Source of the DNA: Psychromonas sp. Urea-02u-13
GTDB taxonomy: Bacteria; Pseudomonadota; Gammaproteobacteria; Enterobacterales; Psychromonadaceae
DNA length: 64,000 bases
Direction of reading: 5' to 3'
NCBI RefSeq assembly: GCF_002835995.1
Contig: NZ_PJBZ01000056.1
Coordinates: 1-64,000, forward strand
In this document: positions 2,053-46,803 of the stretch, one piece after another
How the letters are laid out: each line of letters begins with the position of its first letter
How positions within the stretch are numbered: position 1 is the stretch's first letter
Program-made: the position numbers and the translations under genes
Notes under the pieces: model-generated
The model's input: only the letters and a program-made list of their open reading frames with translations
Told to the model about the DNA's origin: nothing
The model's database searches: none

Positions 2053-2384
2053 TGACTATCGAACACCTTACTTATATTGGCTTAATTGGTAGCTGTTTTA
2101 TGGCTTCTCGCCTTGTTGATGGCATCACAAAACAACGCTTGATTTTACTTGTATCATTCCTGATAGTTGGAGCGATTGGCTTACCAAGTTTTATTGAAGA
2201 ACGGCAACAGCATCAGTTAATTCAAAAACAAAAAGAAACAGCTGAAGCTCTGCTTTGGAAGCCTTTTAATGAATGTATTGAGCGTAGAAAAGAACAGATT
2301 AATGAGGATACCCAAGATAATCAGCCGGAGGTTTGTATATCACCAGCTGAATTGAAAATTAAGAGGCTTCTCTCTGAGCAATAG
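2052..2384 (+). CDS. small membrane protein, unknown function
   Basis: 110 residues. Two hydrophobic stretches in the first 55 residues (IGLIGSCFMASRL; LILLVSFLIVGAIGLPSF) are followed by a charged, probably helical tail. The ATG overlaps the stop of the lipoprotein gene by one base, so the two form one unit. Its 3' end overlaps the convergent KAP NTPase gene by 26 bp. The family is not recognised. Confidence 0.55.
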   Translation: MTIEHLTYIGLIGSCFMASRLVDGITKQRLILLVSFLIVGAIGLPSFIEERQQHQLIQKQKETAEALLWKPFNECIERRKEQINEDTQDNQPEVCISPAELKIKRLLSEQ

Positions 2385-4620
2385 CATCTGTAAAAGCTTC
2401 AATTGCTTCTTGCTCTGATGAATCTAAATTTTCTCTATTAAGGTGTTTAAGGGAATCTTCTATTAAGTTAATGGGAAAAAATTGCTCTATGTTTTCTAAA
2501 TTTATTTCCGCTGTTTTGCGTGAAACACGACTACCAGAAGTCCATGAAGATCCTTTTTGAACAAAAGATTTAAGTAAAAGAAGCCCATATTCTGGATCCT
2601 TAATTTGATCGATTAACCATGAACTTACTTTTTCATCATTTCCCCAACGCTTCCATCGGTAAATAAAAGATCCTATTTGTGGATGCCTAATTAAAACATT
2701 CTCTTTACTCACAGACAATAAATCAAGCTTATCAACAAACGCTATTTTCAAATGCTCAAAGATAGAATTTGATAGTAAAGTTTCACCATTATTATCCTTC
2801 CTTTTGGTTTCTTCATATACAAGTATTGATTCAATAACATTTAAACCAGATTCTGGTTCTTTAAAACATTCAAAAATCAATTTACTTCTTTCATCAATAT
2901 CTTCAATTCCCTTCAATACGTTTTCTACATAAATAGTCATATAATTGATTGAATTTAATGAAAATGAAAAATCATCATTGCCAATTTCATCACAGGCATT
3001 CAGCAAGGAACAAATGAAACTTCTACTATTTTCAGTCGGTATTTTTTCAATAAAAGCCATAAACTGACCTAAAGAGTTTTTCAGGATTTCTCTTTTATGG
3101 AGTTCTTTAAGGAAAGAGCTAAAAGCTAAACTATCATTAGTTAAAGATAACATCTCTTGTAATTCAGAATGCGAAAGCTCTCCACTTGGCATTGAAAACA
3201 GAAAATATTTTTCGAAATTAGATGAATGGCATATACGCATTCCCCTTAACCATGATTCATGGTGTCCACTCGCATATGTTGTTCCCGAAATTCTTTCAAG
3301 GCCAGGAAAAATATGATGTAGCAAACCTTTCAACCTATCCTTATTACCACTTGCTAGATTCAATATCTGATTATATTTCTCTTCTTCCTTAGCTCTGGCA
3401 TCTCTATCGTTGATAGTGCCATAATTAGTAAAAAAATCTTTAGACTGAGATATTTTCTTATAAAGATCTGGCTCAAATAGTCGTAAACATTCAATTGCGA
3501 TTAAATCAACCGGATTCACTTCAAAGGCATTTTCTCCTTGATATAGAGAGAAATGAAAAGAGAATGTTGATGTAAAGCGATACACATTTCTCAAATTATT
3601 GAAGTAATCAGCTAATGAGCTATGGAAAACATTCCCCCAATATGTTGGATTAAAGCTTGTTATAGCAAACTTATCCGTATCGAGGATTTCATTCAATTGT
3701 TGGAAAAGCAATTCATGGATTCTGCTAGTTTCAATCTTAGGAATATCAAATGGTACTTGAATAATTTTCTCTAAGTAATCTCTACCTTTTTGTTTCCCAT
3801 CAGTTAATTTATCTTCTACTAGATCTCTTTGAAATAATAAAAGAAAGACTACATTTGGAAACTCTGTATTAGCTTTAACTAGCTGAAAGACCATTTGAAG
3901 TTGCTTCGTAGTAAGTCTATCCAAGTCATCTAATACAATAATTACCGACTTATCTCGCTCTTTTAATAGCTTTGTAAGCGCATGCCGTAACTGACTGAGA
4001 GTCAATTCCTCTTCTTTAGCAGATGCGTCAGTACTGCCAGCTAGCTGTTTGAGTAACTTTTTACCCCATTTTAATGCCACTACCCAAATAGCCATGACAC
4101 CTAAACATACTTGAGTTACCCAAGTGTCAAAGAACGTCAAACCAAACAAAGCGAAGATAGCAATCAGAGTAGGAACAGCAGCGATTAGCCCAGTAGTAAC
4201 AATTTCACCAGTATTTAAATAGCGCCCATATCTGCTAAATAATTTAGCTAGTTTTTTACCATTAGCAGATTTGTCTTTTAGACCAATTGTTGATGATATT
4301 TCTTTAAAAAACGAGGCTGTTATTTTGTCTTGAGCAGCCCATTCCCAAGGAGAAAACTCAATGATATCAGGGTTATGTTCAGCTGTTTTTTTTAACTCAT
4401 CAAGAGCCATATTTTTAATAGATGATTTACCTGACCCCCAATCACCATGAAGAGCTACAACTAAACTATCATTACCATGCCAATCAGCAATTACGTTTGC
4501 CAAATCTATAGAGAATCCCGATCGACCTAATAAATCATCATTCGTTGTATTTATAGGGCGGTCAGAAGAAAATCCATGTTTATCATTATTATTCACTTTA
4601 GAATCTCTGTATTTTGGCAA
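2359..4620 (-). CDS. KAP-family P-loop NTPase
   Basis: 753 residues. The N-terminus has the KAP family opening (DLLGRSGFSIDLANVIADW), Walker A GDWGSGKS at residues 59-66 and Walker B IIVLDDLDRL at about 227-236. Two hydrophobic segments (about 141-163 and 166-185) lie between Walker A and B, the insertion typical of membrane-associated KAP NTPases. The C-terminal 450 residues are helical and charged with no recognised domain. KAP proteins are signalling NTPases; bacterial ones often occur in plasmid or phage-exclusion settings (the family is named partly after PifA). Here it sits in an accessory island beside a phage/satellite remnant, so a defence role is plausible but unproven. Family call is firm, role is inference. 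Confidence 0.85.
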   Translation of the reverse strand: MPKYRDSKVNNNDKHGFSSDRPINTTNDDLLGRSGFSIDLANVIADWHGNDSLVVALHGDWGSGKSSIKNMALDELKKTAEHNPDIIEFSPWEWAAQDKITASFFKEISSTIGLKDKSANGKKLAKLFSRYGRYLNTGEIVTTGLIAAVPTLIAIFALFGLTFFDTWVTQVCLGVMAIWVVALKWGKKLLKQLAGSTDASAKEEELTLSQLRHALTKLLKERDKSVIIVLDDLDRLTTKQLQMVFQLVKANTEFPNVVFLLLFQRDLVEDKLTDGKQKGRDYLEKIIQVPFDIPKIETSRIHELLFQQLNEILDTDKFAITSFNPTYWGNVFHSSLADYFNNLRNVYRFTSTFSFHFSLYQGENAFEVNPVDLIAIECLRLFEPDLYKKISQSKDFFTNYGTINDRDARAKEEEKYNQILNLASGNKDRLKGLLHHIFPGLERISGTTYASGHHESWLRGMRICHSSNFEKYFLFSMPSGELSHSELQEMLSLTNDSLAFSSFLKELHKREILKNSLGQFMAFIEKIPTENSRSFICSLLNACDEIGNDDFSFSLNSINYMTIYVENVLKGIEDIDERSKLIFECFKEPESGLNVIESILVYEETKRKDNNGETLLSNSIFEHLKIAFVDKLDLLSVSKENVLIRHPQIGSFIYRWKRWGNDEKVSSWLIDQIKDPEYGLLLLKSFVQKGSSWTSGSRVSRKTAEINLENIEQFFPINLIEDSLKHLNRENLDSSEQEAIEAFTDAIAQREAS

Positions 4621-43607: not shown

Positions 43608-44291
43608 TTGTTGTACCTGTTAAATGGAGTTTTTAATATCGCTAATCACCCGTTAATCGAAGTCCCTTTTAATTACCGTAATACCTGCTGGTTTTGCGGT
43701 GAGCCCGATGATCAAAATGTCGACTTCCCTAAAAAAACTTATGAAGCTAACATTGTGACACATGAACCGATCTGTCTGCCTAGCTGTAAAGAATGTGCAA
43801 ACATTATTCAGCGTAGTGCGTTCACCTCTATCTACGCTTATCGGGACGCCATTAAACAGGGACTAGTGAAGAAGCATCAGAAGGTACTCAGTATTGGCTC
43901 TAATTGGACTGAACAAGAGTTATTAGAGTCTGAATTTGAAGGCAGTGCCTTCGAAGGTTTTAAACGCAGTGCTTGGCCGATGTTTAAAATGATGCAAGCA
44001 CGTATTAACTACCAGGGCTGGAGTATCGTTATTAATAACGATCATGTGATTGAAGAAAACGAGCATGAAAATTTTGAGTTTGATGGTGTTAATTACACTA
44101 GCTTAGAAGATGCCGTTACACATGCTGTTAAAACGTTTTTCTTAGATGAGCAACTGTTTACACGTGTATTGAGCGTGCTAGGTAAAGCAAAGTTCACGCA
44201 AGCGATTAGATTGTGCCGCTTATATCCGAATTTAAGCACTAAACAACGCGAGTCTGTCTTTATAGAGATATTAGATAGTATTGGTTTGTAG
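43608..44291 (+). CDS. CxxC zinc-ribbon protein of unknown function
   Basis: Up to 227 residues. A first pair CWFCGEPDDQNVDFP and a second CLPSCKECANI suggest a treble-clef or HNH-like zinc site near the N-terminus; the rest is helical and acidic (ENEHENFEFDGV). The start is unclear: TTG codons at 43608 and 43611 have no Shine-Dalgarno, while a good GGAG (43626-43629) sits eight bases before an in-frame ATC at 43638, just before the conserved part (NHPLIEVPFNYRNTCWFC). Similar proteins occur as single genes in marine gammaproteobacteria. No function is known to me. Confidence 0.65.
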   Translation: MLYLLNGVFNIANHPLIEVPFNYRNTCWFCGEPDDQNVDFPKKTYEANIVTHEPICLPSCKECANIIQRSAFTSIYAYRDAIKQGLVKKHQKVLSIGSNWTEQELLESEFEGSAFEGFKRSAWPMFKMMQARINYQGWSIVINNDHVIEENEHENFEFDGVNYTSLEDAVTHAVKTFFLDEQLFTRVLSVLGKAKFTQAIRLCRLYPNLSTKQRESVFIEILDSIGL

Positions 44292-44374: not shown

Positions 44375-46636
44375 TTAGAGTTTATTCAAACTTGGCTTTT
44401 TACTTTGATTTAAAGAAATAAGCTTAGTTTTACTGACACGGTAACGATAGATTTCACGCAGGTATTTAATGGCACGTTTGACGTTGTCAGAATTTAACCT
44501 GATATCATTAATAGAGACAAACTTATCATCTTCATCACCTAATATTTCACGATACTTTTTCTCGTACATAGGTTTGATGGCATGCCAATTGGTATCGAGT
44601 ATTTTAGCTGGATTCTCAAACTCTGAGATCATCGTATCCAACTCATCCTCATCAAAGTGATCATCTTTAATCATATTCAAGAATATTTCATCAAACTTAT
44701 CATCGTAACAATAATCACCCGTTGCAAAACAACGTTTCACATAAGAGACAATCAGCGTTAAGAAATCATCACTTAAACAAGGGCTTTTAGCCACCAGCGT
44801 GGTTAATGAAATATTTTCTGATGCCCCGATGACTAACGCGTAACGCTTCAACGTCGTATTGGGAAATAGGCTATTAAGGTGTGTTTTAAGACGATTAAGA
44901 TCCATATAAGAGAGCTTGTAGTCTTTAGGTAATGAGATAATCGATACAACCGAAGAACATTTATTAAAAAACAAAATATCTTTTAACTTACTGGTATCAA
45001 AATTATTGTTGCGACAATCCGCTAAATGTTCGCGATACGCCTCCGCTTCCATCGGTAATAGGCTCACCCCTTCAATCGCACGCGTATCTTTATTGAAGTG
45101 CGGTAAATCAATTGAGCGGAAGAATAAATCGTCAATATCTAACTCGACCAGTTCACTTGGCCCAGCTTGGCTACCATCAATAATAGGGGCGGTTTTCTTC
45201 ACCGTTGATTCTGCATAAGCGATCGTCACGGGACCAGCAAGGCTCATAAACAGATCGTTTGCATCTAAGCGAATCGTTTCACTGATATCAACCCCGGCAC
45301 TGCGGAAGTAGTCTTGATCGTAATCTTTAGTCACCGCTTGTGCGGTTAAAATATTAAATATTTGCTGTGAGATATATTGGTTTGCGTATTTCTCCATGGT
45401 GTTCACATCAACATTTTGCATGCTGCCACCATCTTTCTCTTCTGCATAACGCATAATGTCATTGGAAATTAACATCATCGAATTCCAAGGGCGTAATCTA
45501 TCCACAATCGTGCGTTTGTTATCGTCTTCATCACGATCTAAATTATATGAAAAGTCCCACTCTTCCGATAAATATTTACACAATAATCGCCCAGCATTGA
45601 TATGCAACGCCTCGGAAATCTCCACCGACTGACAAGAAATATTTGGCAGAATACAGATACCACTACTAAAAATAGGTTCGAAAACAAAAGAGTGACCATC
45701 ATTATCATTATCATTATCATGATTTTCTTTTTTAGCTTTCTTTTCAATATGTAACGTTTTGCTCATATAAGCATATTGTTGCGCTAAGCCAAACTCAGAT
45801 GCCATACCTGAACCTGTACCACCACCCGCACTAAAGATATAAAAGAATAAACGTGATTGATTCGCTTTAATGCCACAGGAATCAATCATATAAGAGTGAA
45901 TTGATTTCCAGTCTTTATTTAAAAATCGTTCTGCGCCTTTATTAAGAATAATTTTTGCTAAATATTGGCCCAAGACAGGTGCATTACCCGAACCACCAGC
46001 ATGCACTTCCGATAAGTCCATTATCTTCATTTTTGAATAACCGTCTAACAGGCTATTTTTTCCATCCATATAGGAATAACGAACACGACCATCAATGTCT
46101 TGGTCTAAATCGCCCAATATGACAAAAGGCTCGATTAAAAAAGCGGCTCGTTTGTCATAGGGCTCTTGAATACCTAAGCTTTTCTTAATCCATCGACTGG
46201 TAGCGGAAGGCTTGTACTTTTTACTAACATCAGATTTTTGGAAGTCATTAAGGTAATAATTACGTGCGTTGTAAACAAGATTAGCGAGGTCCAATGAAAT
46301 ATTCGAACCACAACGACCTAAACCCACCAGACAAACAGAGGGGAATTGCGCTTGTGCTTGATCTTCAGCGGTAAAGTTATCGTGTAACGGGTAAATCTGC
46401 TTTTTAAGCTCCGCTAAATTTTCTAAAATACGCTGTGTATCATCTTCAATAAAATAGATGTGCTCAGAGATAGGCACGACATTATCATCGTCAGGTAGGT
46501 TAACAGGTTGCTTTTTTTCAATCTTTTTATGATTTTCTTTAGCTTTGCTTTTCTTTTTTACAACCGCTTGTTCAGCACTGATTTCAATGTCGCTTTCTGT
46601 TATTTCTGTTGTAAGCGCACTCTTTTTTATTTCCAT
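44375..46636 (-). CDS. large FtsZ/tubulin-like GTPase
   Basis: About 753 residues from the ATG at 46636 (AGAGAG upstream; an earlier in-frame Met at 46660 is less likely). A charged N-terminal tail (1-95) precedes the GTPase half: VCLVGLGRCGSN (about 101-112, first loop), AGGSGNAPVLGQ, the tubulin signature SAGGGTGSG (269-277), and ETIRLDANDLFMSLAGPV (about 453-470), which matches the FtsZ T7 region with both Asp of D-x-x-D kept. A 280-residue C-terminal part follows, far from the FtsZ pattern. An acidic ND repeat (about 306-313) interrupts the domain. It is clearly neither the cell-division FtsZ (about 380 residues, in the mra/mur cluster) nor plasmid TubZ in length. It stands alone, with its own promoter region and no partner gene on the same strand. 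A filament-forming, membrane or cargo role is inference. Confidence 0.85.
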   Translation of the reverse strand: MEIKKSALTTEITESDIEISAEQAVVKKKSKAKENHKKIEKKQPVNLPDDDNVVPISEHIYFIEDDTQRILENLAELKKQIYPLHDNFTAEDQAQAQFPSVCLVGLGRCGSNISLDLANLVYNARNYYLNDFQKSDVSKKYKPSATSRWIKKSLGIQEPYDKRAAFLIEPFVILGDLDQDIDGRVRYSYMDGKNSLLDGYSKMKIMDLSEVHAGGSGNAPVLGQYLAKIILNKGAERFLNKDWKSIHSYMIDSCGIKANQSRLFFYIFSAGGGTGSGMASEFGLAQQYAYMSKTLHIEKKAKKENHDNDNDNDGHSFVFEPIFSSGICILPNISCQSVEISEALHINAGRLLCKYLSEEWDFSYNLDRDEDDNKRTIVDRLRPWNSMMLISNDIMRYAEEKDGGSMQNVDVNTMEKYANQYISQQIFNILTAQAVTKDYDQDYFRSAGVDISETIRLDANDLFMSLAGPVTIAYAESTVKKTAPIIDGSQAGPSELVELDIDDLFFRSIDLPHFNKDTRAIEGVSLLPMEAEAYREHLADCRNNNFDTSKLKDILFFNKCSSVVSIISLPKDYKLSYMDLNRLKTHLNSLFPNTTLKRYALVIGASENISLTTLVAKSPCLSDDFLTLIVSYVKRCFATGDYCYDDKFDEIFLNMIKDDHFDEDELDTMISEFENPAKILDTNWHAIKPMYEKKYREILGDEDDKFVSINDIRLNSDNVKRAIKYLREIYRYRVSKTKLISLNQSKKPSLNKL

Positions 46637-46779
46637 ATTATCTCTCTTAGTGATACACAAAGAAAAGGTGCACAGTGCACCTGAATATGAAATAAGTGTA
46701 GTTTATAAAGGCACTTAACTTAATTTGAGAAAGGAGATACGGCACATACTTTCAACAATTTATCACTTATAAAAAACAA

Positions 46780-46803
46780 AAAAGGAGGCAATAGCCTCCT
46801 TTT
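46780..46803 (-). terminator. terminator of the receptor gene
   Basis: A perfect 9-bp stem (46781-46789 against 46794-46802) with a 4-nt loop; on the minus strand it is followed by a long T-rich run. It lies 22 bp past the stop of the chemoreceptor gene and insulates the tubulin-like gene. Confidence 0.9.

Follow-up and report, generated by a model that had tools for sequence, protein, structure and literature searches.

A lone gene in a 64,000-nucleotide stretch of DNA from Psychromonas sp. Urea-02u-13, the whole of which is referred to below as the window, probably encodes a tubulin-superfamily GTPase that can be dispensed with, moves horizontally and would polymerise. Its features fit those of FtsZl2, a known family represented here in Psychromonas, rather than a new one, and what the present analysis adds to the account of that family published in 2010 is its patchy presence, low dN/dS values, transfer between bacterial families, broken copies, and coexistence with FtsZ.

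The gene and its product

The open reading frame covers positions 44375-46660 of the minus strand and would specify 761 residues from a TTG start, while an ATG at 46636, with AAGAGAGA just before it, gives 753. Since the relative L003 begins at the matching position (MEIKKSAL...), the ATG start and the 753-residue product are probably the better coordinates, and the initial annotation, which had placed a frame of about 753 residues at 44375..46636, described a real gene whose start is common to L003. Residues are numbered from the TTG throughout. The gene is the sole match for itself in the 4.75 Mb genome. Terminator-like sites are not enriched in the region (three observed, 3.4 expected from shuffles), and one such hairpin separates the gene from that of an upstream chemotaxis receptor, so that the ftsZl2-type gene is perhaps its own transcription unit. 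The features of the gene and of its product are collected in Table 1.

Table 1. Features of the ftsZl2-type gene, its product and its upstream flank, in window coordinates; counts are of sequences with the motif.
Feature	Position	Strand	Residues	Remarks
ftsZl2-type gene	44375..46636	-		753 aa from ATG; 761 aa if TTG at 46660
Variable charged N-terminal tail	46466..46636	-	9-65	relative L006 almost without tail
T1-like loop GLGRCGSN	46301..46324	-	113-120	123/126
T4 (tubulin signature) loop SAGGGTGSG	45806..45832	-	277-285	126/126
T6-like segment ISND	45458..45469	-	398-401	assigned by eye
H7-like helix from ANQYISQQIFNIL	45326..45385	-	426-445	assigned by eye; helix in low-confidence model
T7-like segment LDANDL, both Asp	45251..45268	-	465-470	126/126; assigned by eye and from PMC2875224
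C-terminal region	44396..45220	-	about 481-755	
Terminator-like hairpin	46780..46803	-		between upstream methyl-accepting chemotaxis gene and ftsZl2-type gene

Motifs were counted in 126 sequences, namely the window protein and the 125 relatives kept. The strings for T1, T6, H7 and T7, the last three assigned by eye, follow one another in order and are invariant or nearly so, and the T6 pattern [LIVM]SND is found in every sequence (126/126). The three elements that the initial annotation had singled out, GLGRCGSN, SAGGGTGSG and LDANDL with both aspartates, thus proved to be invariant or nearly so across this set, and the charged N-terminal tail that it had noted is present, the first 65 or so residues being those that vary among relatives. 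The spacing of the loops is wide, with 164 residues from T1 to T4, as against about 86 in FtsZ, then about 120 from T4 to T6 and about 66 from T6 to T7. A DNA pattern for GGGTG(S/T)G has two sites in the 4.75 Mb genome, one in this gene and the other at the ftsZ locus, and its reversed counterpart, used as a control, has none there; the occurrence of the motif is more than chance.

Past residue 480 the protein continues for about 280 residues, for which no Pfam match was found in the window protein and none over cut-off in four relatives. This part, which had been described from the sequence as novel, is indeed one without a Pfam match, but such a region had been reported for FtsZl2 in 2010. 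It is as conserved as the GTPase half, at 63-69% each between the window protein and those of 10 genomes outside the genus.

Probable membership of the FtsZl2 family

FtsZl2 was defined, with PFL_1302 of Pseudomonas fluorescens Pf-5 as its type, as a proteobacterial family found through its signature motif (Makarova and Koonin, 2010; PMC2875224). According to that paper, its proteins have T1, T4, T6, T7 and H7 elements, inserts between T1 and T4, and a unique C-terminal region of ~300 aa, and its genes have no associated genes (PMC2875224). In the present set the signature loop GGGTG(S/T)G is universal (126/126), and the C-terminal region without known relatives is of about the length described (about 280 against ~300 residues). 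Given this agreement in signature loop, probable T1, T6, T7 and H7 elements, inserts, C-terminal region, lone gene, and abundance in Pseudomonas, the window protein is very probably a member of FtsZl2, an assignment made by the published description. In that comparison by description, which places the family in Pseudomonas and other proteobacteria, no feature was seen that would separate it from the window gene. The initial annotation had suggested that the FtsZ-like protein may be a cytoskeletal element of its own; its FtsZ-like character stands, but the family that it fits, to which the annotation alluded in general terms, had already been named in 2010. A literature search by the name FtsZl2 returned no work on the family later than the 2010 paper; the string also occurs in PMC7327170, where it concerns an FtsZ L272E mutant and not the family.

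Comparison with other members of the superfamily sets the protein apart from each. It shares with FtsZ the GGGTG(S/T)G loop and a T7 segment with two aspartates, but it is about twice as long, has large inserts and shows no significant overall similarity, and the gene is patchy in distribution, with FtsZ present alongside. FtsZl1, by the same source, contains a coiled coil, lacks a recognisable T6-H7 and is encoded in operons together with VWA proteins (PMC2875224). It presumably corresponds to PF13809 (Tubulin_2). That profile has a subthreshold match in 24/24 FtsZl2 members scanned, over long stretches in some. TubZ and PhuZ, known from plasmids and phages, are tubulin-superfamily GTPases outside cell division, in contrast to which the window gene has no plasmid or phage relative in the collections searched. 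SAGGGTGSG occurs as well in a TubZ-like protein, L193 (positions 1255-2457 of its contig, minus strand), which is a second tubulin-superfamily protein in a genome, G1035, that also has FtsZ and FtsZl2. Unlike the window protein, L193 has 400 aa and a TubZ C-terminal domain, scoring over the cut-off for PF00091, PF13809 and TubZ-like_C (PF22453), and a BLAST comparison of the two gave no significant match (best E 1.1).

Evidence for membership of the tubulin superfamily

Membership of the tubulin superfamily is likely for the window protein, and the initial description of it as tubulin/FtsZ-like was probably right: the loops are kept, and 24/24 members match both tubulin models, below threshold. 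Against PF00091 the window protein scores 20.1 bits, where the cut-off is 33 (E 8e-4, residues 267-288), and against PF13809 13.9 bits, where it is 27 (E 0.03); four relatives reach 13.7 to 22.3 bits and 13.6 to 18 bits, respectively. These are the two profile comparisons that the initial annotation had recommended, and every score in them fell under the curated cut-off. For the 24 members scanned, matches up to E 1 were counted, the lowest E being 8e-4 for each model; DUF6562, an apparently unrelated family, matches 12/24 of the same members, in the best case at E 7.6e-4, so that tubulin-model E-values of such size are no proof. Some matches extend well beyond the signature loop, as in L053, whose residues 196-368 are collinear with PF13809 positions 115-270 (E 0.0018; 173 residues in order), and L017, whose residues 203-335 are collinear with positions 115-228. 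L133 matches PF00091 at E 1.8e-4, and the T1 stretch of L017 aligns, under the cut-off, with PF00091 positions 2-39 (E 0.017), the first positions of the model, where T1 belongs in the FtsZ topology.

Profile-profile comparison with FtsZ aligned the T4 stretch alone, at a probability of about 2%. For the whole protein the score was 25.3, compared with a shuffle maximum of 25.1, so that 0/60 column shuffles came as high, and in three other set-ups one or two of 60 shuffles reached the real score. A local FtsZ HMM found the family no better than it found shuffled sequences, as did the reverse search, and no NCBIfam model, including the FtsZ model TIGR00065, matched the window protein up to E 1. 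Sequence searches of the PDB returned nothing relevant and no convincing solved relative; with the T4 stretch alone, gamma-tubulin appeared at E 4, ranked behind a superoxide dismutase construct. A PF13809 profile search in 150 sampled genomes of the phylum found none.

Two AlphaFold models had pLDDT values of 39 and 46, too poor for use, and fold searches with an unreliable model gave weak non-tubulin matches. Because the models are this poor and the Pfam tubulin matches lie under their cut-offs, we infer the fold and filament formation from features of the sequence. In the second model a strand (570-577), a helix (585-598) and a strand (606-611), followed by SLTTLV, with pLDDT of about 35-68, look by eye like the C-terminal domain of FtsZ, a resemblance that is only a lead and that a profile test did not support. 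In that test the C-terminal domain of FtsZ was compared with the full-length protein, with its C-terminal region and with the middle part of that region, and 39, 51 and 47 of 60 shuffles, respectively, were as good.

Distribution, genomic context and decay

The search confirmed 443 relatives in genome contigs, the best 80 of which are all gammaproteobacterial, from Psychromonas, Rheinheimera, Alkalimonas, Arsukibacterium, Alishewanella, Cellvibrio, Pseudomonas, Marinobacter and other genera. Presence is patchy. With the window's own genome counted throughout, the gene is found in 4/24 genomes of its genus and 7/60 of relatives' genomes (the broken copy in G032 included), 25/217 of its order (broken copies in G032 and G1371 included), 2/369 across the class, and 9/398 of a sample of the phylum (G032 included). 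Pseudomonas carries it in 99/149 genomes, two of these copies being partial (two pieces in G868, the C-terminal half only in G860), and one relative, L071, is from P. piscis; the order of Pseudomonas has it in 22/390 genomes. Genome G660 is that of Pseudomonas sp. HMWF032, to which its DNA is 100% identical over 5079 bases. Plasmid, phage and viral-contig collections yielded no relative, the viral scans depending on short peptide patterns, and in these collections the initial observation of no phage or plasmid link holds. A search of phages for FtsZ gave 36 records; the 10 listed were set aside, since they resemble FtsZ of the host entered under a phage.

Neighbouring genes were surveyed at 98 loci, in 89 of which the gene is a single open reading frame, after removal of the duplicates L168, L178 and L179. 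The loci fall under 28 genus labels, including provisional ones given to unclassified assemblies. The most widespread neighbour family occurs under at most six of the 28 labels. The top three families share an identical six (Rheinheimera and kin), the fourth is found under five of them and under g10, and families of immediate neighbours reach at most 6, 4, 3 and 3 labels; even among the Psychromonas copies the flanks differ. The lack of a partner gene, which had been noted from the window, therefore extends to the 98 loci, where none is widely shared, and the neighbour survey, which had been proposed as a check, found that homologues are not always linked to an unrelated enzyme family.

Decayed copies occur in two genomes. 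In one (L201, in G032) the gene is interrupted by stop codons and carries an insertion of about 975 bases, and in the other (L200, in G1371) C-terminal pieces are all that is left. Together with the 20/24 genomes of the genus in which no match was found, three of them under 90% complete, these broken copies indicate that the gene is dispensable.

Selection and coexistence with FtsZ

The gene is under strong purifying selection. Among eight pairs tried, two were saturated and five were measurable, with dN/dS of 0.026, 0.031, 0.061, 0.068 and 0.012, values that are rough in three of the five as dS is above 2, and the 22 cluster representatives compared are at least 57% identical to one another. 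Canonical FtsZ was found over cut-off in 27/27 genomes tested (15/15 and 12/12), that of the window's own genome lying on contig C168, and so FtsZl2 is no replacement for FtsZ.

Horizontal transfer

FtsZl2 and FtsZ identities were compared in 24 of 27 genomes, G032 (broken), G783 (near G769) and G741 (near G535) being left out, and correlate at 0.46 over 276 pairs. The window and family f16 share 88% identity in FtsZl2 and 61% in the FtsZ core; in the tree, f16 FtsZl2 is nested among Psychromonas. Psychromonas FtsZ sits on a long branch, which lowers its identity to the FtsZ of other families. Families f10 and f20 show 58-62% to Psychromonas in FtsZ and 64-65% in FtsZl2. The case for transfer is thus that f16 is no closer to Psychromonas than f10 and f20 are in FtsZ, whereas in FtsZl2 it stands at 88% against their 64-65%. 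A second case is provided by f10_G1379 and f210_G547, with 80% in FtsZl2 and 65% in FtsZ. For 11 genomes of other orders, compared with the window, the figures are 57-68% for FtsZl2 and 53-56% for the FtsZ core, a difference exaggerated by the long branch of Psychromonas FtsZ, and elsewhere the order is reversed, as between f16 and f10 (FtsZl2 64% vs FtsZ 84%) and between f285 and f209 (60% vs 78%). Judged by these sequence comparisons, the ftsZl2-type gene has moved between bacterial families.

Contamination of the f16 assemblies with stray Psychromonas contigs was considered and ruled out. A fadE-like neighbour on the f16 contigs has counterparts of 88% and 82% identity in two other f16 genomes, and none above 31% in Psychromonas, which marks the contigs as native. 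Loci L013 and L014 match each other over a stretch that starts about 130 bases before the open reading frame and runs through fadE, and agreement with two f16 genomes that lack an intact gene starts 55-103 bases (G038) and 205-281 bases (G1371) past the stop. As agreement with these two genomes is downstream alone, it maps one edge of the inserted unit and no more.

Proposed mode of action and alternatives

We lean towards an FtsZl2-family GTPase of the tubulin superfamily that would form a GTP-controlled filament and serve outside essential division. A pocket made by T1, T4 and T6 would bind GTP, and upon stacking the T7 aspartates of the adjoining subunit, D466 and D469, would bring about its hydrolysis; the stacked subunits would give a filament under the control of GTP. 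The N-terminal tail would hang off this filament and the C-terminal extension would decorate it or bind a partner, the whole probably serving to scaffold or move a structure of the cell, other parts of which would be host proteins common in gammaproteobacteria; transfer of a single gene suggests either a protein that works by itself or one whose partner is a host protein of wide occurrence. On this basis we infer that the protein binds nucleotide, polymerises and has a function other than essential cell division.

The protein might instead be a GTPase of the tubulin superfamily without the ability to polymerise, working as a scaffold or an enzyme switched by nucleotide, in which the large inserts and the C-terminal extension would block stacking. 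The long stretches between the loops (164, about 120 and about 66 residues) would suit it, as would the equal conservation of the C-terminal part and the GTPase half, which is expected if the C-terminal part bears the function, but T7 keeps both aspartates in 126/126 sequences, and the T7 of FtsZ and tubulin acts on the nucleotide of the neighbouring subunit; we regard this alternative as unlikely, though one to be taken seriously. It is improbable that the protein is no relative of tubulin at all and that an unrelated alpha/beta protein acquired a glycine-rich nucleotide or phosphate loop by convergence. Such an origin would agree with Pfam tubulin matches that all lie under cut-off, with DUF6562 matching half of the members at a similar best E, with an FtsZ HMM that does no better than on decoys, with the want of a convincing solved relative by sequence, and with an unreliable model whose weak matches lie outside the tubulins. 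It accords poorly with matches to both tubulin models in 24/24 members, in some over long collinear stretches and at T1, with a signature motif confined in the genome to this gene and ftsZ, and with the HHpred E of 0.0033 that supports a tubulin relationship for PFL_1302 in its description (PMC2875224).

Single-gene movement and patchiness would also be accounted for by a mobile gene of defence or some other conflict, and loss through decay would be in keeping with it, yet PADLOC gave no match for the protein and, on four of its neighbours in the window, weak ZorA and JetC matches alone, both to the chemotaxis receptor. Many conflict genes change faster than this slow-changing family, with its minimum identity of 57% and dN/dS of 0.01-0.07, and its presence in 99/149 Pseudomonas genomes likewise speaks against such a role, which we consider very improbable.

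Implications

If the preferred reading of a polymerising GTPase is taken further, FtsZl2 might, tentatively, be a one-gene mobile filament system with its own C-terminal effector, spread over many gammaproteobacterial hosts with no co-transferred partner, under tight selection and yet losable. Its C-terminal region may, in the same tentative scheme, hide an FtsZ-type C-terminal domain (residues 570-611), one that went unrecognised in the 2010 description of FtsZl2 (PMC2875224). The unusual and testable point is that single-gene mobility is combined with slow change of the protein, and, as the gene is common in Pseudomonas, laboratory strains offer a way to test what it does. Should the protein prove to be of cytoskeletal type, it would mean that a relative of tubulin can work in plug-and-play fashion, unlike the prevailing view of FtsZ or TubZ.

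Other genes in the window

The gene adjoining the ftsZl2-type gene, at 43608-44291 (plus strand), encodes a protein of 227 aa with a subthreshold match (E 8e-4) to PF12156, a metal-binding domain of cation-transport ATPases, and without an ATPase part. Elsewhere in the window, at 2359-4620 (minus strand), lies a gene for a KAP-family P-loop NTPase of 753 aa, a family that is frequent company of mobile or defence genes.
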